This document shows, piece by piece, positions 7,362 to 64,000 of a DNA stretch of 64,000 bases. The position numbers and the translations under genes are program-made. This DNA comes from an endosymbiont of Lamellibrachia barhami (GTDB lineage Bacteria; Pseudomonadota; Gammaproteobacteria; Chromatiales; Chromatiaceae). Numbering within the stretch: the stretch's first letter is position 1; each line of letters starts with the position of its first letter. A model generated the notes under the pieces. The model was not told the origin of the DNA. It did not search any database and worked only from the letters and a program-made list of their open reading frames with translations. Location: the NCBI RefSeq assembly GCF_011947365.2, contig NZ_JAAVSH020000001.1:534907-598906 (forward strand), given 5' to 3'.

Positions 7362-8248
7362 TGCCTTACCTCATCAGGATCAGCAGTGGATTCGGGACTC
7401 ACTGCGGCTTCCTGCAATAGGTCATCGGGATTCAGTGTCCAGACCAGCAGTACCTCCCGGATACGATCCAGATGGGCGGTTGGGCGGGCGGATACCGTGG
7501 CGAAATGTTGTCCAGGTTCGTGACGGACATCGGTGATTTCAGCGACCGGATAACCCGGAGGAAAGCGTCCGCCCAACCCGGAGGTGACCAGCAGGTCTCC
7601 CGGCCGGATGTCGGCATTGTTCGGCAGATGGGGCAGTTCGAGTTGGTTGATCAGCCCGGTACCCAAGGCGATGGTGCGCAAGCCATTGCGATTGACCTGT
7701 ACCGGCAGGGCGTGCCGGGCATCGGTGATCAACAGCACAGTGGAGGTAATGGGATCGGTATGGATGACCTGGCCAACCACAGCATGGGCGTCCACCACCG
7801 GCTGGCCGTTGAAAGTGCCGGAGGTGTCGCCTTTGTCGATGATCACCTGCTGGCTGAATGGGTTCTGCTCCACTGCAATCAGTTCGGCAATCAATACCCG
7901 TTCGCCGATCTTGAAGGTGGAGTCTAGCAGCCCACGCAGCCGCATGTTTTCCGCCTCCAGGGCCTCGAATTTCAATAGTCTGCCACGCAGCTCCAGATTC
8001 TCCCGGGAGAGGCGCTCCCGATCCGTCTGGATCTGCACCCGGGTCGAGAAGGCATTACCCATCTCCTCCACCAGGGAGGCAGGAAGGGTGGCGAGATACT
8101 GTATCGGATAGAGGGCGACCGCGAGCGCCGAGCGCAGGGTCTCCAAATGGTTCTGCCGATGGTCCAGTACCATCAGGACAATGGAGAGGATCGCCGCGCC
8201 GAGCAGGCGGGAGGTGATCGATGGTCCCTGTGTGAAGATCGGTTTGAT
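7358..8248 (-). CDS. mreC: rod shape-determining protein MreC, apparent ATC start
   Basis: Periplasmic scaffold of the elongasome: one N-terminal membrane segment, a coiled coil (about residues 70-105) and two beta domains. The first in-frame ATG (8173) lies inside the membrane segment, so it cannot be the true start. Reading upstream in frame gives IKPIFTQGPSITSRLLGAA, the usual MreC N-terminus, with ATC at 8248 where homologues have ATG, and AAAAGGG ten bases further up. A stop lies about 16 codons above that, and no ATG, GTG or TTG intervenes. Either ATC (or the CTG/ATT codons just upstream) is used, or a base has changed. With ATC the protein has 296 residues. Confidence 0.88.
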   Translation of the reverse strand: MKPIFTQGPSITSRLLGAAILSIVLMVLDHRQNHLETLRSALAVALYPIQYLATLPASLVEEMGNAFSTRVQIQTDRERLSRENLELRGRLLKFEALEAENMRLRGLLDSTFKIGERVLIAELIAVEQNPFSQQVIIDKGDTSGTFNGQPVVDAHAVVGQVIHTDPITSTVLLITDARHALPVQVNRNGLRTIALGTGLINQLELPHLPNNADIRPGDLLVTSGLGGRFPPGYPVAEITDVRHEPGQHFATVSARPTAHLDRIREVLLVWTLNPDDLLQEAAVSPESTADPDEVRQ

Positions 8249-52368: not shown

Positions 52369-52504
52369 CGGTGTGATTTGCCCTCAAGGATAAAGTACGG
52401 CCAGACGAGTTTTCCGGAGAGTCTAAGTCTAACAGCTGACGTGGATTCGCCCCACGCCCGGTGATTCCGGTAAGATGGCCGCCCAAACAGACAGTCGAAA
52501 CAAG

Positions 52505-53047
52505 ATGCCGCAAAAACCCAAAATCCTGAAGCAGAAAATTGCAGCCCAATCCCGGATCTTCCGGGTCGAGGCGCTCAACCTGGAGTTTTCCAACGGCGAG
52601 TTGCGCAACTATGAGCGGCTGCTCGGCGGTAGCCGCGGCTCGGTGATGATCGTACCCATGCTGGATGACGAAACCGTACTGCTGATTCGCGAATATGCCG
52701 CCGGTAGCCACGACTACCAACTCGGCCTGCCCAAGGGACGTATCGAGGTGGGAGAGGATCCGCTGCAGGCCGCCGACCGTGAAATCCGCGAGGAGGTCGG
52801 CTACGGCGCCAATCGACTGGAACTGCTGCGTACGGTAAGCATCGCCCCAGCCTATATCCAGCACTTCACCCACATCATTCTGGCCCGGGATCTCTTTCCC
52901 GACAAGCAGGAGGGTGACGAACCTGAACCCATCGAAATCGTTCCCTGGAAACTTTCGGCCTGGGATGAACTGCTGGCACAACCCGATTTCACCGAGTCAC
53001 GCTCCATTGCCGCCATCAGCCTGACACGCAAACAGTTTGGATATTAA
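52505..53047 (+). CDS. nudE: ADP compounds hydrolase NudE
   Basis: Nudix hydrolase acting on ADP-ribose, Ap3A and similar compounds. The Nudix box GLPKGRIEVGEDPLQAADRE continues IREEVG, fitting GX5EX7REUXEEXGU. The start MPQKPKILKQ at 52505 matches the E. coli N-terminus; an ATG at 52475 is possible. 180 residues from the chosen start. Stop is immediately followed by cysQ, as in E. coli-like neighbourhoods. Confidence 0.93.
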   Translation: MPQKPKILKQKIAAQSRIFRVEALNLEFSNGELRNYERLLGGSRGSVMIVPMLDDETVLLIREYAAGSHDYQLGLPKGRIEVGEDPLQAADREIREEVGYGANRLELLRTVSIAPAYIQHFTHIILARDLFPDKQEGDEPEPIEIVPWKLSAWDELLAQPDFTESRSIAAISLTRKQFGY

Positions 53048-53845
53048 ATGGCTTCCCTCCTGCCAGTCCCGGTCCAGACCCTGCTCGACCTTGCCAAACA
53101 AGCGGGCGATGCCATTCTGGCTATCTACAATTCCGGGTTCAGCGTCACTGAAAAGACCGACCACACGCCACTCACCGAGGCGGATCTCGCCGCGCACCGG
53201 GTCATCGTCACGGCCCTCAAAGAACTGACACCGGAGATCCCTGTGCTCTCGGAGGAGTCACAGGCGATCCCATTCGAGACCCGGAAAAAATGGTCGCGCT
53301 ACTGGCTGGTCGATCCCCTTGACGGCACCAAAGAGTTCATCAAACACAATGGGGAGTTCAGCGTCAACATCGCACTCATCGAAGAGCAGCAACCGATTGC
53401 CGGAGTGATCTATGCGCCGATCCTCGACATCGCCTACTACTGCACTGGTGACGGCAAGGCCTGGCGTATCCGACAACAGCTACCCCCTGAAAACATTCAT
53501 GTGACCCGGCAACGCCGCCACCCACCCATCATCGCCGGCAGCCGCTCTCACGCAGGCCCGCAGTTACAGGCATTTCTGCAACGGATCGGGGGCCACAAAC
53601 TGATCCCGATGGGCAGTTCCCTGAAATCCTGCCTGGTTGCCGAAGGCAAGGCCGACCTCTATGCCCGTCTCGGCCCCACCTCCGAGTGGGATACCGCTGC
53701 GGCCCAGGCAATTGTCGAGGCGGCTGGCGGGCGCATCACCGATACCCAAATGAGACCGCTTTTGTACAACACCAAACCTTCGCTATTGAATCCCCACTTT
53801 TTTGTCTTCGGCGATCTTTCGGAAGACTGGTCAGCCTATCTGTAG
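53048..53845 (+). CDS. cysQ: 3'(2'),5'-bisphosphate nucleotidase CysQ
   Basis: 265 residues. Inositol-monophosphatase fold; removes the 3'-phosphate of PAP formed in sulfate assimilation and sulfonation. Metal-site motifs EESQ near 73, DPLDGTKEFI near 93, and WDTAAAQAIVEAAGG near 218. No spacing from nudE. Confidence 0.95.
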   Translation: MASLLPVPVQTLLDLAKQAGDAILAIYNSGFSVTEKTDHTPLTEADLAAHRVIVTALKELTPEIPVLSEESQAIPFETRKKWSRYWLVDPLDGTKEFIKHNGEFSVNIALIEEQQPIAGVIYAPILDIAYYCTGDGKAWRIRQQLPPENIHVTRQRRHPPIIAGSRSHAGPQLQAFLQRIGGHKLIPMGSSLKSCLVAEGKADLYARLGPTSEWDTAAAQAIVEAAGGRITDTQMRPLLYNTKPSLLNPHFFVFGDLSEDWSAYL

Positions 53846-54012
53846 TGCGGTTAACCGCCATACGGGTTAGACCAGCGCTGTACTTTTCCGCCAATGCCAT
53901 ATAATTCAGTCAACGATAACAACCTTGGGGATCCAGTCCCCTCGCGAATAACAAATACCCGTTGCAGACTCCGGGCTCCATCGTCGTCATAACCCGCGAA
54001 GGGCCAACATTT

Positions 54013-55050
54013 ATGAAAATTCTCATCCAGCGATTGCTGAGCAGCATCGTCATCCCGTTGCTCTGCCTGCAATCCACGCTCCTCTGGGCGGGCGGGCAGG
54101 AGGACGATGCCTTCGAATTCGACGACTTTCCTCTTGAGGAGCCGATGGATCACCCAAGCTGGTTCAAACACAGCTTTCTCGATCTGCAGGAGGATCTGCA
54201 GGAGGCCATCGAGCAGGACAAACAGGGCATCATCGTCTATTTCGGACAACGGCGTTGCGCCTACTGCAAGATGCTGATACAGGTTAACTTTGGCCTCTCT
54301 GACATCACCGCCTATACCCGCAGCCACTTCGACATCATACCCATCGATATCTGGGGCATTGACGAGCTCACTGACCTCAAAGGCGAGACACTCACTGAAC
54401 GGGAATATGCGATCAGGGAGAACACCAACTTCACCCCCTCCCTCATCTTCTACGATCGGGAGGGCCATGAAGCATTGCGTCTGCGAGGCTACTACCCCCC
54501 CTACAAATTCCGCGCCGCCCTGGAGTATGTGGCGGATGGCCACTACCGCCAGGAGTCTTTCCCCGACTATCTTGCAAGAGGTGACGAAGGGCAGGTTTTC
54601 GAACCAGGGGATCTGAACGAAGAGGATTATTTCATCCCGCCGCCCCACAACCTCGACCGCAGCCGATTCAGAGGCGAACGTCCACTGGTGGTATTTTTTG
54701 AACAGGGAGAGTGTCACGCCTGCGACGTCCTGCACGGCCAACCCCTGCGGGATCCCGCCATCAACAAACTGTTCCGTAAATTCGACAACGTTCAGCTGGA
54801 CATCTATGCCGAATCCCCGGTCATCACTCCGAATGGACGACGGACAACCGCAAAGGCCTGGGCGCAGGAGCTGGGGCTTTTCTACACCCCCTCACTGATC
54901 TTCTTCGATGAAGAGGGGAAAGAGATCATGCGGGTCGATTCCGTGGTTCGCTTCTATCGTCTGCGCAATGTCATCAACTACATCACCAGCCGGGGTTATC
55001 TCAGCCAACCCAGTTACCAGAATTGGCGTATTGAAAACCTGAGCAATTAG
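54013..55050 (+). CDS. exported protein with two thioredoxin-fold domains
   Basis: 345 residues from ATG 54013: signal peptide to about residue 26 (STLLWAGG), then an acidic linker and two thioredoxin-like domains. The first has CAYC at 82-85 and cis-Pro in FTPSLIFYDREG; the second CHAC at 234-237 and YTPSLIFFDEEG. Each is about 140 residues with the same strand order, so the gene arose by internal duplication. It resembles SoxW-like or DUF255-like periplasmic redoxins; partner unknown. Its TAG stop lies inside the composite repeat end at 55048. Confidence 0.85.
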   Translation: MKILIQRLLSSIVIPLLCLQSTLLWAGGQEDDAFEFDDFPLEEPMDHPSWFKHSFLDLQEDLQEAIEQDKQGIIVYFGQRRCAYCKMLIQVNFGLSDITAYTRSHFDIIPIDIWGIDELTDLKGETLTEREYAIRENTNFTPSLIFYDREGHEALRLRGYYPPYKFRAALEYVADGHYRQESFPDYLARGDEGQVFEPGDLNEEDYFIPPPHNLDRSRFRGERPLVVFFEQGECHACDVLHGQPLRDPAINKLFRKFDNVQLDIYAESPVITPNGRRTTAKAWAQELGLFYTPSLIFFDEEGKEIMRVDSVVRFYRLRNVINYITSRGYLSQPSYQNWRIENLSN

Positions 55051-55192
55051 TGTCCATCCGGAAATCAGTTCCCGTAGCCCGGATGGAGCTTGCGTAATCC
55101 GGGAACAGAGTATGATTCAGCCACTTATCTTCCTGGATTCCGCTACGCTTCATCCAGGCTACAATTATTCACTTGTTTCCGGACGGGCACTA
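55048..55192. repeat. composite palindrome, same outer ends as 31363, different inner palindrome
   Basis: Outer arms 55048-55064 and 55176-55192 are inverted with two mismatches and match the outer ends at 31363-31497. The inner palindrome runs from GTAGCCCGGATGGAGC near 55074 to CTTCATCCAGGCTAC near 55162, a common proteobacterial REP type. The first three bases are the stop codon of the thioredoxin-fold gene. Confidence 0.85.
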
Positions 55193-55230
55193 TTTAGACA
55201 CCGGTGCCTGTAAGGGCCACACCCTGGGTT

Positions 55231-55677
55231 TTACGTGCGACAAAACTGCTTCAGATAATCCTCATAGTCAGCCTGCTGACGATGCAACTTGTCACTTTGA
55301 CTCGCCTTATAACCGGTACGCAGGCGCTTTTCGACCTTTTCCAGCTTCTTCCGCTTTGCCCAGCAACGTTTCTCTTCACTGCGCTTGCGGCGGGTTTTCG
55401 TGGCTTTTGAGCGGCGTTTGGACACCTTTTTCTGTTTTGTTCTTTGCAGTCTGAGGGCCGGTTTGGCGGGACTCAGACCTGCACTCCGATTCACGATGCG
55501 GATCTGTTGCTGCTCACCCGAAACACAAGGGATCTGCTGAAACGTCACATCCCCCTCCGGCAGTTGACATCGATAGACCGTCACACCACCACTGGATGCA
55601 GCGCCAGGCTGTCCCACTGAACCTGCAAGAGTGAGCCCCAAGAGGACGCAAAAAACTGTTTTTCTGAATAAGTTCAC
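55231..55677 (-). CDS. exported basic protein, DUF4124-like N-terminus
   Basis: 148 residues: signal peptide to about residue 26, a short beta domain with two Cys (VTVYRCQLPEGDVTFQQIPC) like DUF4124, then a strongly basic Lys/Arg-rich region (KRRSKATKTRRKRSEEKRCW) and a helical tail. The basic segment could bind polyanions. Function unknown. Confidence 0.75.
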   Translation of the reverse strand: MNLFRKTVFCVLLGLTLAGSVGQPGAASSGGVTVYRCQLPEGDVTFQQIPCVSGEQQQIRIVNRSAGLSPAKPALRLQRTKQKKVSKRRSKATKTRRKRSEEKRCWAKRKKLEKVEKRLRTGYKASQSDKLHRQQADYEDYLKQFCRT

Positions 55678-55799
55678 TATCCAACCTCCCTGTCAGATCC
55701 ACTTGCCCAATCATAAAGGGAACAATATTCCTATTCAAGTTTTTTCGGGAACTGCCGATAGACTTTTAATCACCTGGGGAGAAAAACAGATACGCCACC

Positions 55800-56927
55800 A
55801 TGAGGAGCCTGGAACAGGAAAACCGAATGTTGCGCCAGCGACTGCTGGAACTGGGACGCGAGGCCCTGCATAACGAAAACACCTTCAAACGTTTTCACCA
55901 AAGAGAGTTGGAGTTGCTCTCGGCCAGCTCCCTGCCGGAACTGCTGAACAGCATGACCGACGGCCTGCAGGACTCCTTTCAGGTAAAGGCGATCCAGTTG
56001 ATTATCGAAGATCAGGAGCACGACATCCGCCGCCTGCTCTATAATACCGGCATCCCGGAAGATGCTTTTCCTCTGGTTCGCTTTGTCGATCAAATCGACT
56101 CGGTCAACAGAGAGTATGCAACGCTGCGACTACCCCGGCTGGGTCCCTTCCTCAGTCCCGACCATGATTCGCTCTTCTCTTCGAGAAGCGAGTTGCGCAG
56201 TATTGCGATATTACCGATATTCTGTCGCACCCGACTGATCGGCAGCCTAAACCTCGGCAGTACCGACAGCAAAAGGTTCACACGCCACCATGGCAGTGAT
56301 TTTCTCCACCGGCTGGCAGCGATCGGCGGTGTCTGCCTGGAAAATGCGGTAAACCGGGAGCGGTTGATCATCAGCGGACTCACCGATGCACTGACCGGGA
56401 TGCACAACCGCCGCTATCTCGACCGGCGGCTCAAGGAGGAACTGGCCAGGGCCAACCGCTATCGCCAGCCCATGAGCTGCCTTTTTATCGATGCGGATCA
56501 CTTCAAACAGGTCAACGACACCCACGGCCACCAGGCGGGCGACACCGTATTACGGGAGTTGGCCAGCCGTATTCGCTCCCAACTGCGCGCCAGCGATGTG
56601 GCCACCCGCTACGGCGGTGAAGAGTTCACCCTGCTGCTGCCACAAACCTCCCTCGAAGAGGCCAAACTGCTGGCTGAACGCATTCGCCTGGAGATCTCAA
56701 ACCATCCCATTACCCTTGATAGCGGTGAGCAGATACCGCTTACCGTTTCCATCGGCATCAGTGAGGCCCTGCCAACGCTGGGCAAGGCCTCGTTGGAACA
56801 GGTCGGAGAACATCTGCTTGCCACTGCAGATGAAGCCGTTTATCGAGCCAAACACAACGGCAGAAACCGGGTGGAGCACTGCCGCGAAGATATCCCCCAA
56901 CAACTGCCGGTTGATGAGGTCAGTTAG
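55800..56927 (+). CDS. GAF/DUF484-like sensor diguanylate cyclase
   Basis: 375 residues, cytoplasmic. N-terminal coiled coil and a DUF484/GAF-like domain to about 190 (IQLIIEDQEHDIRRLLY, SIAILPIFCRTRLIGSLNLGS), then GGDEF about 200-365 with active-site GGEEF at 272-276 and an RXXD inhibitory site at 263-266. So it should make cyclic di-GMP under product inhibition. No membrane segment. Confidence 0.93.
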   Translation: MRSLEQENRMLRQRLLELGREALHNENTFKRFHQRELELLSASSLPELLNSMTDGLQDSFQVKAIQLIIEDQEHDIRRLLYNTGIPEDAFPLVRFVDQIDSVNREYATLRLPRLGPFLSPDHDSLFSSRSELRSIAILPIFCRTRLIGSLNLGSTDSKRFTRHHGSDFLHRLAAIGGVCLENAVNRERLIISGLTDALTGMHNRRYLDRRLKEELARANRYRQPMSCLFIDADHFKQVNDTHGHQAGDTVLRELASRIRSQLRASDVATRYGGEEFTLLLPQTSLEEAKLLAERIRLEISNHPITLDSGEQIPLTVSIGISEALPTLGKASLEQVGEHLLATADEAVYRAKHNGRNRVEHCREDIPQQLPVDEVS

Positions 56928-57101
56928 GGATCATCAGATTAATTTGGATTTTGTCGTCCCGACCCTGGAGATAGATTTCAAACCACCAAGGCACAAGGAT
57001 GCAGACCTCTTGTTACACGAAGCGCAGGGTCCGCTTCTCTCCACGCAACAGGGTCTAAACTTACTTAGTAAGAGGTACCCACCACTGAGTAAACGCAACC
57101 T

Positions 57102-57821
57102 GTGAACTTGCCCCTAAAAAACCTGGTCGAGCGTTTTTTTAACGAAATCAAAAGCCGACCGCTGTTGGCCGCCCTGATGGTGCTTGGCTCGCTGCTGATC
57201 GGTTTGAGCCAATTCACCACCGCCACGCAAAACCTGGTCAACCAGGCCAAAGCCCTCCTGTTCACTCCCGAATACCGGCTGGTGGCGACGGTGCCGGACG
57301 CTAATCTGCTGCTACGCTGGAACTCACTGACTCAAAGCTGGCAGCACCCGAGGAGAGACATCTGGTTCGAGACGGAGATGAGGCTTCCGCTCTCCCTCAG
57401 AAACACAGGCGACCGGGTGGCCGGCATCGAGGGACTGAAGCTGTTGTCCCAGGGCGAGGGGCAGTCCATCACTTGGGAGGCGGTCTGGATCGCACAGCAT
57501 TTCGAGTGGGAACGCTGGGCCTCGATCGAACCCCAGATCCAGAAACAGCGGGAACGGCTGACACCGATCATGCTCGAACCGGGCCAACCGGCACTGCTGG
57601 AAGATATCGACTTTGTGCCGCTGGACTTCGCCGATGAACTTGCCGCCGGTCGCTACACCGCCCAATTGCAGGCACGCGTGACCGGGACAGAAGGCTGGAT
57701 CGAGCTGCTGCGTTTCTCCTTCACCATCCCGGAGGATTTTGTGCTGGCTTCCGGCCGCGTCTCGCGCTATCAGTACTGGCAGCGTTTTGCTGTAGAGGAG
57801 ACAGCTGCATCGACCCGATAG
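57102..57821 (+). CDS. unknown membrane-anchored protein
   Basis: 239 residues from a GTG start without a clear ribosome binding site. One membrane segment at about 22-40, then a probably periplasmic beta-rich domain (RDIWFETEMRLPLSLRNTG, SITWEAVWIAQHFEWERW, RYTAQLQARVTGTEGWIE). No family recognised. It lies between the cyclase and the outer-membrane protein. Confidence 0.7.
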   Translation: MNLPLKNLVERFFNEIKSRPLLAALMVLGSLLIGLSQFTTATQNLVNQAKALLFTPEYRLVATVPDANLLLRWNSLTQSWQHPRRDIWFETEMRLPLSLRNTGDRVAGIEGLKLLSQGEGQSITWEAVWIAQHFEWERWASIEPQIQKQRERLTPIMLEPGQPALLEDIDFVPLDFADELAAGRYTAQLQARVTGTEGWIELLRFSFTIPEDFVLASGRVSRYQYWQRFAVEETAASTR

Positions 57822-58016
57822 GCAAACTTCAGCAACCCCGGGAATGGAACATCAAGCATGACAGTGCAAGTCTTGCATTACGATAATTTTCATTATCCTA
57901 ATTGAAAAGTGATCGAATGCTAAACCATTGTATTTTACCTCTATTCAGTTGTAACCTGATTTGCTGCGCCGTTGAATATGGCATCCATCCTGATATTCGA
58001 GCCTGGAAATAGAGAT

Positions 58017-58823
58017 ATGAAAAAAAGGATTATTGGGGCAGCTTCTCTGGTCTTGCTTCTGGCATCGTCGAACCTCTTCGCTGATGTGCTGGAAAATGAC
58101 CGCTTCAATCTGCGCCTGGGCGGCTTTTTTGTTACCAATACCGAGGCGACTCTCAGTTTTGTCAGTCCTGCTTTGGCAGGAATCTCGATCAATACCACAC
58201 GGGATCTGTCGATGAACGACACGACGAATGTCTTCCGTCTGGACGGGTACTACCGCTTCACAGAGCAATCCTCCATCGACTTCTCCTACTACCGCGTAAC
58301 CCGCGACGGCAACACAGTGCTCGATACGGAGATCCATTGGGGGGAAAATATATATCCGGTTAGTGCCAATCTCGATAGCAGCCTGAACACAGACACCTAC
58401 AAAATCGCCTATGTCTGGTCGTTTCATCATGATGAAAAGGTTGAGCTTGGCCTTTCCGCCGGCCTGCATGTCACCTCGTTCAATGTAAAATTGAAAGGCA
58501 CACTCAACGACATACCCATCCACGATGACTCAAACTCCGCCACTGCACCCTTGCCTGTGGTTGGCTTCAAGCTCAACTACAACATCACCCCCAAGCTGAT
58601 GTGGATGAATAAGATAGAGGTGTTTTACATCAAAATCGATAATTTCAAAGGCAACTTCTCCGATTTCATGACTGCGCTTGAGTACCGGGCATTCGACAAA
58701 ATCGGCTTTGGCGTGGGTCTCAACTCCATAAATTCTGAATTAGAGCTCGAAGAGGGCGACGGGCTCCTTAGCCTGGACACCAACAATCTTGGACTGCTTG
58801 CCTACGCTTCGATCTATTTTTAA
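58017..58823 (+). CDS. OmpW-like outer-membrane beta-barrel protein
   Basis: 268 residues from ATG 58017: signal peptide to about residue 22 (SSNLFAD), then alternating strands consistent with a small barrel (FNLRLGGFFVTNTEATLSF, VFRLDGYYRFTEQSSIDFSY, GLSAGLHVTSFNV) and a final strand LGLLAYASIYF with terminal Phe. Function unknown; a related gene may be the broken one at 63545. Confidence 0.82.
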   Translation: MKKRIIGAASLVLLLASSNLFADVLENDRFNLRLGGFFVTNTEATLSFVSPALAGISINTTRDLSMNDTTNVFRLDGYYRFTEQSSIDFSYYRVTRDGNTVLDTEIHWGENIYPVSANLDSSLNTDTYKIAYVWSFHHDEKVELGLSAGLHVTSFNVKLKGTLNDIPIHDDSNSATAPLPVVGFKLNYNITPKLMWMNKIEVFYIKIDNFKGNFSDFMTALEYRAFDKIGFGVGLNSINSELELEEGDGLLSLDTNNLGLLAYASIYF

Positions 58824-58912
58824 TCTTGAAAGCGCTAAAACAACTAGCCCGGAAGCGTGGCCTGTACCCTATGGAGTTCGATCCCAATGACACGCATTGA
58901 CACGTTACCTGC

Positions 58913-59908
58913 GTGGTGAAGATACTCATATTTTGTCTGTTATCTGCAATCAGCTGGAGCAACTTCGCGGCTGAGTCCAGTGACGTGTATATCGGCCTGA
59001 AGATCGACCAGATCACCAACATCGATCAAAAAGCGGAAAATTTTAGCGTCGTTGGCAGCCTGCGCATCGATTGGCATCAGCCCCTTCTGGCCTTCGAACG
59101 CGAGCCCGGCATGCCAAGGCATCGAACCTATACCCTGGCCACCTTTCTCAAGCTGCTGGAGGAGAAGCAGATCCGCTGGCCAGCCTCCATTTATCAGAAT
59201 CAACAGGGGCGCATGGATTTCCAAAATCGGCTCATCTCCCTGGGGGAAGATGGCACCGTTTTGTACCTGGCCCGGTTTACCTCAACCTTCCAGGCCCCGA
59301 TGTTCGATTTCCGGCTGTTTCCGTTCGATAACCAACTCTTTTTTATCCATGTGGATTCGATCTTTCCGGAGCGTCTGTTTAAATTTAGACAGATGGAGGG
59401 GTTCAGTGGACTGGGGGATCAGTTGGGTGAAGAGGAGTGGATCGTTACCGATGTGGATACTCGCCTGACAACACACAATGCGTTCAACAAAGAGGATGCC
59501 TCCCGTTTTGTGCTGGAATTCCACGCCGTGCGCCACCTCAATTACTATCTGATACGAATTTTGATTCCGGCACTACTGATCATTACCGTCTCCTGGTTCA
59601 CCTTCTTTCTGCAGGACTACACCAAGCGTATCGATCTGGCCGGTGGCAATCTGCTGCTCTTTATCGCTTTCAACTTCACCATCTCCAGTGATCTGCCCCG
59701 GCTTGGCTACATCACCCTGATGGATGCCTTTCTGGTGGGCACCTTTATCATTACCGCCTTGGTGGTATTGGGTAATGTCTGGCTGCGGCGTCTTGAAAAT
59801 CACGGTAGACACGAGCTTGCACGAAAGCTTGATATCTACGCAATCACCAGTTATCCACTGGCCTATCTGATGGGTGCTCTCGTCTTGTGGATACACTTTT
59901 TCTGGTGA
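58913..59908 (+). CDS. pentameric ligand-gated ion channel homologue
   Basis: 331 residues, same superfamily as GLIC, ELIC and animal Cys-loop receptors. Signal peptide about 1-20; extracellular (here periplasmic) beta domain about 25-205 with the superfamily signature FDFRLFPFDNQ (136-139 is FPFD, no disulfide Cys as usual in bacteria). Four membrane helices follow: M1 211-233 with the conserved Pro, M2 239-257, M3 264-290 (DLPRLGYITLMDAF is the bacterial signature), M4 308-330. Starts with two GTG codons. Ligand and ion unknown. Confidence 0.92.
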   Translation: MVKILIFCLLSAISWSNFAAESSDVYIGLKIDQITNIDQKAENFSVVGSLRIDWHQPLLAFEREPGMPRHRTYTLATFLKLLEEKQIRWPASIYQNQQGRMDFQNRLISLGEDGTVLYLARFTSTFQAPMFDFRLFPFDNQLFFIHVDSIFPERLFKFRQMEGFSGLGDQLGEEEWIVTDVDTRLTTHNAFNKEDASRFVLEFHAVRHLNYYLIRILIPALLIITVSWFTFFLQDYTKRIDLAGGNLLLFIAFNFTISSDLPRLGYITLMDAFLVGTFIITALVVLGNVWLRRLENHGRHELARKLDIYAITSYPLAYLMGALVLWIHFFW

Positions 59909-59995
59909 TTAGCGCTCTCCTGCAGACGTTGATTGAATTGATCCATCTGTCCTGTGGCAAAACCGATCGCAGTGCGGGGTCTTCATCAGCACCCT

Positions 59996-62900
59996 TCACT
60001 CAAACTCCAACAGCGGTGAGATTGCTGGGGTTTTCTCCTCCCCCTCTGTCTCACTCTTCTGTTCCTGACCCAGAATCTGTTCCAATGGACTGAATACCTT
60101 TTTGAGGGTCCGCCCGAAACGATCCAGCTGGCTTGTCAGGTCGGCCTCGACCTCTCCGGCCAAACCACCCATTCCCTGCTTCTCTTTGGCCGCAGTTTCT
60201 ACCTGTTGAATAGCCGCCAGACAGGGGCTCTCATCACCTACACCAACATCACCGAACGCAAGCAGCAGATAAGCCGGATTGGCGATGCCCGCGGTCACCC
60301 CGGCAATGGTTTTCAGCATACCCAGCTTTGTCGGCATGATGACCGGAGCGTGCAGCCTGCCCTCCAGTTTCACCGGGTTGGCCAGTGAAACCAGGGTCAA
60401 CTCCTTCGGTCTGGGGTTAAGAATCATATCAAGGGTCTCTTTACGCAGATCGATCTCCCCGCCACCGGCAATGGTCAGTTTCGTGGTATCGATCAACATG
60501 CCGTTGGAATGCCCAATCCCTTTATCGAAATCGAGGCGGTCGACAAGGCAGTTGAGGTCGACCACCGGCTCTTCTTTGAGCCCCATTTGAGGTAACAATT
60601 TTCCCACGAAGTCTTTCAGTTTAAAGGGCAAACCCTGGTTTTTGATGCGGCCCTTGCCGCCAATCAAGACCAAGTGGCCATCCAGTCCTGCCGCCACTTC
60701 ACGCCAGCTCTCTCCCGAACCGGAGATATCGATCGAGAAGTCAGCACTCCCCTCCACATCCGACGTAACCTTCACCCTTTCCAGTAGCACACCATAGTCG
60801 AACTCTTTGACCTTCAGTTGCAACGCCAGTTGCGGTGGCATTGTGGCTGCATTTGCGCTTGCCGTGGCCCGCAAGCTGCCCCCGGTAGCCAGTTTGATAA
60901 CCACGGGGTCGATGCGCAGCTCGCCTGCACTGAGACTCACAGATGCGTGCATGCTGCCGACTGGAGCGGTGCCGAGGACCAATTTTGGTAGTTTCAGCTG
61001 CAGATTCATGTCGAAGAGCGTTAGCCAGGAGAGGGGCAGCGGACGTTCCGAAAACAGCCAGTCGGACTCCCCCGAGCCTTTCTGTGGCTGCGCCTCTTCC
61101 TGCTGAAGTTGTCGCAGCTCTGCGAGGTCTATGGTCTCCGCTTTCAGCTCTCCCTGGACATTTGGCCTCTCTCCCTGCAGCTCGATCCGCAGAGAACCGG
61201 TTATCCGACTTTTCCCCATCTCCGCCCGGAGCTTGGAAAACACCACCCGCTCCTTCGAGGCCATTGCTTCACCCTCCAGCCGATAGGCCGGGGTTTCCGG
61301 CAGCGCCACTCCCGTCAGCTTCGACAGTGTTTGCAACGAAGGGCATCGGATCGAAAAGGACTGAGGCCCTTTGACCTTACCGGTGGTCCCATCCAGATGT
61401 AGTGACAGCGCACCTTCTGTTTTTCCCAAGGTGATCTTTGTAGAGACTGGCAGAGAAGGTCTCCCCTGCACCAACGCAGTCAATTCAGGGCCTGTCGCCT
61501 GTAGATTGAAGCGCTCACCCCGCAACTCGCCTTGGGCGTTCAATGTCATGTTTTTTCCATGCAGGGATGTGAGTTGCAAATGACGGATTACAAGGTCAAG
61601 CAGCGGCGAATCCTGGGCCGCTCCAATAGCGATATGTCCCGTCGCCATCTCAAGCCGGAGTTCCCCTTGCGCCATCAATTCACCCAGGGTTCGACCCTTC
61701 CCGGAAAAGAGCATCTGGATCTGTTTCAGGTCTCCGCGCAGCTTGCCCTTCAGCCCTAGTCGGGAGGCGATGTTTTCAAGTTTGATCGCGCTGCCGGTCA
61801 GATCAAAGGTCAGCGCCTCGCCATTTTTCATCTGCAGACCACCCCGCAGAGGCACCCCGTCAAGATGCAGCTGCAGACCATCTACCCCGAGTGTTTGAGC
61901 ATCAACCTGCAGACGCCCTTTGACATTTTGAAGCGGCAGATCCAGCCCGTCGATCTGTTTAGCCGAAAGTTTCAGGTCCAACGCCAGCGACTCTGGCCAA
62001 GCCACCTCCAACGGCGTCTCAAGCAGACTTTTCCGGGACTCCCCTGCTGCGCCAGATGGCATTTTTTGCGGCTTCGGTTCAGGCTTTATGAGTGGCGTTA
62101 GATCGAGCCGAACCGCCTGCAACTCACCCTGAAGGCGCATAACTGACTGATCCAGATGCAGGATCAACGCACCGGTGATATCGCTGCCACCGACCTTGGC
62201 ATCGATTCCGGTAAACGCCACCTGTGTCCCGTCCGCAGACATCTGGCTTTTGATCCGGAAAACTCCCGTCTTCGGCAATTTCCCCATGAGCAGCGGCAGA
62301 TACGACAACTCCTTGCCTTCAAGTCCGAGAGCCAGATTGATGACCGTCTTGTCCCCCGGCACTATCGCCCCCTTCACCGTGAGCCGATCACTTTCCATCT
62401 GCGCACCGGCCTGCAACGGCCATTCAGCCGCTTCGGCAAAAGCGTGCTTGCCGTCTCCCAGAGAGAACTGCAGTGTAGTTTCACGCTGTTCGAGCAGACC
62501 CTTCAGATCCACCTCGACCCGGCCATCAGTAACCTTCACACTGCCATCGGCAATAGCAAACTCATCAAGACCATAGAGATTGCGCAGCCAACCCTTCAGG
62601 TCGTGGAGCAGCACCCCCCGCTCAACCAGACTGATTGCGCCCTGCAAGTCGGCAGAAACGCCTTCAGGCAGGCCGACGCCGACCAACTTCGATAGTTCAT
62701 CACCCGGGCTCTTGGTCAGGGTCCAGGTGATCCGCTCCCCTTTCGCCTCAGCATGAAGTTCACTCTGCCCCGCCTTGATATCGAGGCGGTAATCGCGCAT
62801 GCCTGCCGCAGTGATCATGCCGACGAAATGCCCCTGCAGATCCACCGAGTGGAAATTGAGCCCGGCGGTCACCTGCAATTCTCCTGTGGCAGAAAGGCTT

Positions 62901-63433
62901 GCCTCGGCGCGCTTTACCTGCAGTATCATCGGCGCGGCTCCAGCATTTTGATAACCCAGCCGCACATCCTTCAATAGCAGTTTGTCTATCAACAGCAACC
63001 GCATTTCACTGGAACCGACCAGATCGCCATCCTCCTGGCCTGTGGCAAATACCCAGTTTTCACCCTGTTCCCCAGAGGACTCCAGCATCAAATCGCCACC
63101 CTGCAGCAGCAGCCGCTTGACCTCCAGCTCACCATCCAGCAACGGCAACAACGCCAATTGCAGTTCGAGTCTCTTCAGTTCCAGTAGATTGGCCCTGGTC
63201 GCCCAGGCAGGATTGGCAACAGCAATGTCTTCAACCACCAGGGTAGGGTAGAGGGAGAGACCCAGTGCGAGTTCGCCATTCAGGCTGACCTCACGGCCCA
63301 AGGTTTCACTGAGCATGACCGCAAGGGCATCACGTTGGGCATTCAGCCAATAGGAGGCCGACATCATCAAACCCATAACCAGCAGCAGAAGGATAAGCGC
63401 CACTGTGACGGACCAACGCCAGGCTGTTTTCAT
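59996..63433 (-). CDS. asmA: AsmA family protein
   Basis: About 1145 residues from ATG 63433 (MKTAWRW), with one N-terminal membrane helix and a long periplasmic beta-repeat body. N-terminal AsmA domain (LNGELALGLSLYPTLVVEDIAVANPAW) and C-terminal AsmA_2-like part (KLTIAGGGEIDLRKETLDMIL). Such proteins are thought to bridge inner and outer membrane for lipid transport. It converges with the channel gene. Larger than E. coli AsmA (617), similar to many AsmA proteins of sulfur and marine gammaproteobacteria. Confidence 0.9.
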   Translation of the reverse strand: MKTAWRWSVTVALILLLLVMGLMMSASYWLNAQRDALAVMLSETLGREVSLNGELALGLSLYPTLVVEDIAVANPAWATRANLLELKRLELQLALLPLLDGELEVKRLLLQGGDLMLESSGEQGENWVFATGQEDGDLVGSSEMRLLLIDKLLLKDVRLGYQNAGAAPMILQVKRAEASLSATGELQVTAGLNFHSVDLQGHFVGMITAAGMRDYRLDIKAGQSELHAEAKGERITWTLTKSPGDELSKLVGVGLPEGVSADLQGAISLVERGVLLHDLKGWLRNLYGLDEFAIADGSVKVTDGRVEVDLKGLLEQRETTLQFSLGDGKHAFAEAAEWPLQAGAQMESDRLTVKGAIVPGDKTVINLALGLEGKELSYLPLLMGKLPKTGVFRIKSQMSADGTQVAFTGIDAKVGGSDITGALILHLDQSVMRLQGELQAVRLDLTPLIKPEPKPQKMPSGAAGESRKSLLETPLEVAWPESLALDLKLSAKQIDGLDLPLQNVKGRLQVDAQTLGVDGLQLHLDGVPLRGGLQMKNGEALTFDLTGSAIKLENIASRLGLKGKLRGDLKQIQMLFSGKGRTLGELMAQGELRLEMATGHIAIGAAQDSPLLDLVIRHLQLTSLHGKNMTLNAQGELRGERFNLQATGPELTALVQGRPSLPVSTKITLGKTEGALSLHLDGTTGKVKGPQSFSIRCPSLQTLSKLTGVALPETPAYRLEGEAMASKERVVFSKLRAEMGKSRITGSLRIELQGERPNVQGELKAETIDLAELRQLQQEEAQPQKGSGESDWLFSERPLPLSWLTLFDMNLQLKLPKLVLGTAPVGSMHASVSLSAGELRIDPVVIKLATGGSLRATASANAATMPPQLALQLKVKEFDYGVLLERVKVTSDVEGSADFSIDISGSGESWREVAAGLDGHLVLIGGKGRIKNQGLPFKLKDFVGKLLPQMGLKEEPVVDLNCLVDRLDFDKGIGHSNGMLIDTTKLTIAGGGEIDLRKETLDMILNPRPKELTLVSLANPVKLEGRLHAPVIMPTKLGMLKTIAGVTAGIANPAYLLLAFGDVGVGDESPCLAAIQQVETAAKEKQGMGGLAGEVEADLTSQLDRFGRTLKKVFSPLEQILGQEQKSETEGEEKTPAISPLLEFE

Positions 63434-63544
63434 CTCAACCATGATTCAGACCAACGTCGCGTGAGCAAATATTCACATTGTGTGATAAGTCGCATACGCT
63501 AATAATAGCCGTTAAATATTGCCGGTAAGGGATAGACGGCCTCC

Positions 63545-64000
63545 GTGAAACATTGGTTCATTTTGCTGCTGTTAATCTGCTCCCCATTGCAGGCGACCGT
63601 ACCGACATTACAGCAAGAGGAGTTGCCAAACTACGCCTTCGCCCCCTTTATCGGTTCGGGCATCTACGCCACCCAAAACCGTACCGTCACTGTCTTCAAC
63701 ATTCCACTCTCCTACAACCTGCGCTCCATAGAGGACGATGACTGGGGACTGGGGACTGGAGATCACCACGCCGCTCACTATCGGTCTATTCAACTTTGAT
63801 TTCGGAGACTTCGAGATCCCTGATCTGCGGGAGCAACTGGGGACCCTGAGTTTCGTACCCGGCCTCCACTTCCATCTGCCGGTTTCAAAACAGTGGATTC
63901 TCACTCCGCTTGTCGACTTGGGAGTCGGCAAGGCCAGCAGTGGCAGCGACTTCGCCTGGATCTACTCCATCGGCATAGAAAGCCGCTACTATTTTGACTG
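63545..64000 (+). pseudogene. frameshifted outer-membrane protein gene, runs off the window
   Basis: GTG start at 63545 with a signal peptide (FILLLLICSPLQAT), then YAFAPFIGSGIYATQNRTVTVF up to SIEDDDWGL. A direct 7-base repeat (TGGGGAC twice, 63743-63756) shifts the frame, and the first frame stops at about 63799. Removing one unit gives DDDWGLEITTPLTIGLFN and an open frame to the window end (last residues IESRYYFD). So the gene is one tandem unit away from intact: a real mutation, a switchable site, or a sequence error. Confidence 0.85.

Follow-up and report, generated by a model that had tools for sequence, protein, structure and literature searches.

The closest described system is sTeLIC (PDB 6FL9 and further entries), the channel of the Tevnia jerichonana endosymbiont. 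Its pore has been described as wide-open (PMC8449418). The channel is opened by alkaline pH and is potentiated by cinnamic-acid derivatives through an intrasubunit vestibular site with an EC50 of 21 uM, and GLIC, which opens with protons, shows the opposite pH response (PMC7336382). Bromoamphetamine also binds the vestibular site of sTeLIC, for which W75, Y104 and L93 were named (PMC11988449). DeCLIC (PDB 6V4A) is a calcium-inhibited channel carrying added N-terminal domains (PMC9897478). In a published survey, the partners noted next to bacterial pentameric ligand-gated ion channel (pLGIC) genes were PBP-II and Cache-domain genes (PMC549065).

This study was concerned with a pLGIC gene in a stretch of 64,000 nucleotides, referred to as the window, from an endosymbiont of Lamellibrachia barhami. 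A literature search on ligand-gated channels and Lamellibrachia symbiont genomes found no paper, and one on the genes that surround prokaryotic pLGICs gave only a paper on CRISPR. The window channel is like sTeLIC in that its M2 helix and the residues W75, R86, L93 and Y104 (sTeLIC numbering throughout) are identical, and unlike it in carrying 41 substitutions, 32 of which lie in the extracellular domain. DeCLIC is farther from the window channel than sTeLIC (E 4.3e-80). The two share a wider clade of 15 rows and have a similar M2 and pro-loop, but DeCLIC has N-terminal domains that the window channel does not have, and N at the positions of R86 and H194. ELIC (best chain E 7e-25) and GLIC (chain 3eam, E 5.4e-22) share the superfamily with the window channel and are much farther away, at about 80-91 bits versus 620 for sTeLIC.

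The channel gene and its kinship to sTeLIC

The open frame at 58913-59908 on the + strand has 331 codons and is intact. In the alignment, the GTG codon at 58913 is replaced by CTG, CTG and TTG in three same-site relatives, whereas the GTG codon at 58916 is GTG in all three and lines up with the ATG of two Escarpia copies found at a second site. Because of this codon pattern, the gene is most likely 58916-59908, with 330 amino acids. The preliminary description of this DNA had given 58913-59908; the frame is sound and its start probably lies one codon later. The features of the channel gene are as follows.

58916..59908, + strand: sTeLIC-type pLGIC, 330 aa, start set by alignment; PF02931 and PF02932; 274 of 315 residues identical to sTeLIC
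58916..58972, + strand: predicted signal peptide of about 19 residues (hydropathy segment 1-20), with a putative cleavage site; the alignment to the sTeLIC chain begins correspondingly after it
59288..59344, + strand: pro-loop region FQAPMFDFRLFPFDNQLFF with the FPFD motif, placed by alignment
59624..59719, + strand: M2 pore helix with the M2-M3 loop, KRIDLAGGNLLLFIAFNFTISSDLPRLGYITL; no difference from sTeLIC

Both Pfam domains of the superfamily passed their cut-offs, Neur_chan_LBD (PF02931) with 38.5 bits against 26 and Neur_chan_memb (PF02932) with 29.5 bits against 28.1. The top solved match among the best 60 of 269 matches was sTeLIC (6FL9), with an E value of 6.8e-186. Chance is therefore excluded, and by its sequence 58916-59908 codes for an intact pLGIC, as had been proposed. 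The NCBIfam models LIC and LGIC_1 scored 106.8 and 80.3, under their own cut-offs of 280.2 and 500, respectively. The FPFD and LPRLGYITL signatures that had been pointed out were both found in the alignment. A full set of four helices had also been claimed; all four were assigned through the gap-free alignment to sTeLIC, while a hydropathy scan at a threshold of 1.5 flagged only the signal peptide, M1 and M3. A closed ring of five subunits would be expected from the 87% identity to a solved pentamer.

The identity to sTeLIC is 87.0% over an alignment without gaps, and is made up of 165 identical residues out of 197 in the extracellular part and 109 out of 118 in the membrane part. From M1 to M3 (sTeLIC residues 200-281), 80 of the 82 residues are identical. 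Placement in a pLGIC tree, which the preliminary description had suggested, was carried out by maximum likelihood with 25 rows, and the five full-length copies of the genus formed a single clade with sTeLIC (support 100/100). Within this clade, the window copy clusters with the copies of genomes G020 and G068 (100/99), and sTeLIC was placed beside the copies that belong to the cassette described below (92/86). However, sTeLIC is 88.3% identical to each of the second-site copies of G099 and G120, versus 87.0% to the window copy. Identity thus favours the second-site copies and the tree favours the cassette copies, so that the position of sTeLIC inside the clade is tentative. The named near relatives are MAGs from symbionts of Lamellibrachia anaximandri, Escarpia spicata and Escarpia laminata. 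Judged by identity and tree placement together, the window channel is an orthologue of sTeLIC, a known channel type with a solved structure; it is a new orthologue and a largely ordinary one.

The window genome (4,169,104 bases in 19 contigs) contained one pLGIC match. The homologues at 47-50% identity vary in length at the N-terminus. Three of them (L006, L007 and L008) carry 325-363 extra N-terminal residues, and L083, which comes from a different family within the class, carries at least 354, its frame being cut by the locus end. The extension is 113 residues in L012 and 8-12 residues in L009-L011. In addition, a contig labelled as an ANME-2 cluster archaeon (L035:2-514) holds the C-terminal part of a pLGIC, 176 residues that are 51-52% identical to the window channel; this piece may reflect transfer or mis-binning.

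The barrel-channel cassette in the genus

The channel gene is preceded by an outer-membrane barrel gene, and the two occupy a cassette of about 2.16 kb between the gene for an anchored-type protein and a convergent AsmA-type gene.

57102..57821, + strand: anchored-type protein, left flank outside the cassette; in 6 of 6 genus genomes, adjoining AsmA at two empty sites
57823..59980, + strand: cassette of two genes, bounds approximate; in same-genus genomes it is complete, partly deleted or missing between the two flanking genes
58017..58823, + strand: outer-membrane beta-barrel protein, 268 aa, first cassette gene; OMP_b-brl match, C-terminal YASIYF
59996..63442, - strand: AsmA/YhdP-type protein, convergent, right flank outside the cassette; Pfam AsmA and YhdP

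The barrel gene is intact and ends 89 bases before 58913 and 92 before 58916. The earlier statement that a barrel gene lies some 90 bases upstream on the same strand was thus accurate, but its OmpW-like identity was unsupported and was rejected, as OmpW is absent from the seven families listed for 13 members of the barrel family. In the Pfam scan at E up to 0.1, the barrel matched OMP_b-brl and no other family (28.9 bits, the cut-off being 28.7), and 12 of the 13 members match this model at that threshold. No convincing solved relative was found, the best E values being 0.25 by sequence and 1.6 by profile, and an AlphaFold model based on three sequences was unusable (mean pLDDT 29.7). No terminator-like site was found between 58823 and 58916, so that barrel and channel are probably co-transcribed; the scan gave 4 sites overall versus 2.1 expected. 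A promoter-like scan (4 sites versus 2.6 expected, sd 1.8) was uninformative. Scans of Pfam, NCBIfam and PHROGs at E up to 0.1 gave no match for the anchored-type protein.

Six congeneric genomes were compared at this site. The cassette is complete in three of them (G000, G020 and G068), has lost most of the channel in one and is absent from the site in two. In G120 the barrel is intact and about 56 channel residues are left before AsmA. The deletion junction (L052, G120:C32, about 8130-8143) has a short near-repeat, and the two BLAST pieces share 14 contig bases. Both cassette genes are missing from the site in G099 and G138, where 94 bases separate the aligned ends of the anchored-protein and AsmA genes. 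No barrel match was found in either of these genomes at E up to 0.001, and no pLGIC match was found in the G138 genome.

An intact channel, 83% identical to the window copy and without this barrel alongside, is found elsewhere in G099 (L054:6589-7581) and G120 (L053:7760-8752). The neighbours of these second-site copies are a META-domain gene directly upstream and a convergent OprB-type porin gene downstream, as named by family scans of the G099 genes. The dS between second-site and cassette channel copies is 1.0-1.1, versus 0.22-0.24 between the window channel and the G020 or G068 copies. Thus, the second-site copies are old paralogues or were separately acquired. The META-domain gene was considered as a required partner of the channel and was rejected, since G020 and G068 carry the channel but lack any match to the META-domain gene. 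A 51% relative of that gene does occur about 5 kb beyond the window channel; just past the right end of the window, L078:3414-4115 encodes a protein with YcgJ and META domains, of which the META part shares 51% identity with the G099 gene.

The cassette also appears to have moved within the genus. When DNA identity between G020 and G068 was calculated in bins of 500 columns, it was 95.8-99.2% in the four bins covering 57891-59890 and 82.8-94.6% in the eleven upstream bins (52475-57890). The similar block extends into the 3' end of AsmA, where the two bins that follow are 92.5% and 99.4% identical. In the left-flank DNA tree, G020 groups with G138 and G099 and not with G068 (support 100), and the left-flank protein tree gives the same grouping (support 85-87). 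The identity jump and the left-flank tree together indicate that the history of the cassette differs there from that of its left flank, which would be most simply explained by recent homologous recombination.

Along the right flank, the AsmA/YhdP-type protein (59996-63442) is 71-73% identical to five same-genus orthologues, with the divergence spread along its whole length; the six genes on the other side of the cassette are 89-99% identical to theirs. At the right end of the window, the overlapping open frames 63545-63799 and L078:2645-3280 (starting at window position 63738), which differ in reading frame, read like one secreted barrel-type protein and are possibly a frameshifted gene. A Pfam scan of the second piece gave nothing at E up to 0.1.

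Barrel and channel as a possible pair

The preliminary description had suggested that barrel, channel and anchored protein could form a small-solute uptake and sensing set. Within the reach of these searches, we read the pairing of barrel and channel as a linkage specific to one lineage, for several reasons. First, pLGIC matches at E up to 0.001 were found in 25 of 210 genomes of the order; 12 of these were near full length with at least 47% identity and the others were remote or partial. Barrel matches were found in 14 of the 210, and only four genomes, all from this genus, matched both. In a sample of the class, a pLGIC match was found in 19 of 369 genomes, the window's own included. Secondly, a tblastn search (E up to 1e-5) of nine stretches of 10.6-17 kb that surround other pLGIC copies, two from the same genus and seven at 47-50% identity, turned up no barrel relative. 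Likewise, no pLGIC was recognised by eye in the frame list near four other barrel relatives (L079-L082), and three of those four genomes (G183, G189 and G150) had no pLGIC match. Lastly, the anchored protein exists as described, but its membership of the set is not supported, as it is present in all six congeners including the two whose site has no cassette. Synteny of barrel and channel was seen for three intact same-site copies and the G120 remnant; it was not seen in the nine other pLGIC stretches, and among the 210 order genomes only members of the genus matched both. The linkage as read here would not be evidence for a general uptake-and-sensing set; the generality of such a set is not supported by the order counts, and the set itself is unproven.

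A functional pair, in which the barrel admits a solute or ion that the inner-membrane channel senses or conducts, would fit part of the data. The two genes are same-strand neighbours separated by about 90 bases, and no terminator-like site lies in the gap; they occur together in three genomes and are jointly missing from the site in two, and the dN/dS of both barrel and channel is below 0.35 in every pair compared. However, linkage alone can suffice for the joint loss or gain of the two genes as a block. In addition, G120 has kept an intact barrel though the neighbouring channel is mostly deleted, the intact channel at the other site in G099 and G120 does not have this barrel beside it, and the genomes that match both, among the 210 of the order, all belong to the genus. 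We consider such a pair unlikely. Slightly less likely still is that barrel and channel are a matched pair across both membranes, spread between tubeworm symbionts by homologous recombination; if true, the cassette would be a first physiological setting for a sTeLIC-type channel.

Ligand-site residues and proposed mechanism

The residues W75, R86, L93 and Y104 are identical in all six sTeLIC-type copies of the alignment. R86 is presumably part of the vestibular site of sTeLIC; the sTeLIC variant 6fvq has A in its place. The acidic residue near the cytoplasmic end of M2 (sTeLIC 227) is D or E in 15 of 15 rows of the wider sTeLIC-DeCLIC clade. The histidines H174, H190 and H283 are common to all six sTeLIC-type copies and are missing in the other 19 rows, and H194 is also present in eight relatives at 47-50% identity and not in DeCLIC. 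We infer from these distributions, and only as candidates, that the four histidines may take part in the pH response. Four histidines of sTeLIC are replaced in the window channel (H49R, H81Q, H140R and H170R) and three are gained (R41H, Q286H and L314H); the replacements call for caution against too close an analogy with sTeLIC.

The ligand preference may also differ from that of sTeLIC, since most of the substitutions (32 of 41) are extracellular and several adjoin vestibular residues in sequence (F78S, T79I, H81Q, M103L and E106A). It could even be that the diverged extracellular domain answers to a different agonist or stimulus. However, the named vestibular residues W75, Y104 and L93 and the M2 helix are identical to those of sTeLIC, and we think a different stimulus improbable. 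That the channel is a decaying, non-functional accessory gene, as the mostly deleted G120 copy and the two genomes without the cassette at the site might suggest, is very hard to reconcile with an intact window copy that gives dN/dS values of 0.10-0.16 in comparison with the other four intact copies of the genus, values that indicate purifying selection.

The sTeLIC-like account as a whole is the one we favour, with high confidence. The gene would encode a sTeLIC-type channel of a chemosynthetic tubeworm-symbiont bacterium, forming a homopentamer in the inner membrane that conducts cations, with its ligand-binding domain facing the periplasm. An alkaline periplasm would open the channel, and small aromatic compounds in the vestibular pocket would potentiate it, both as published for sTeLIC. 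The pentameric assembly, the response to pH, the preference for cations and the cellular role are predictions. The channel would be the second gene, after the outer-membrane barrel gene, of a cassette in which both behave as accessory genes, exchanged and lost. The preliminary description had remarked that few bacterial channels of this type have known ligands; for an 87% orthologue of sTeLIC, with its structures, alkaline gating and vestibular modulators, the view of a channel of unknown stimulus is not supported.

The orthologue is otherwise ordinary, and the cassette, with its partial loss in one genome and what appears to be exchange, adds modestly to it. To our knowledge, what such channels do in bacteria is a question still open, and a cassette that is present, partly deleted or absent in close symbionts is a natural comparison for the role of the channel in bacteria. 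In addition, natural sTeLIC variants with an altered extracellular domain, in which M2 and the named vestibular residues are unchanged, could help to map alkaline gating.
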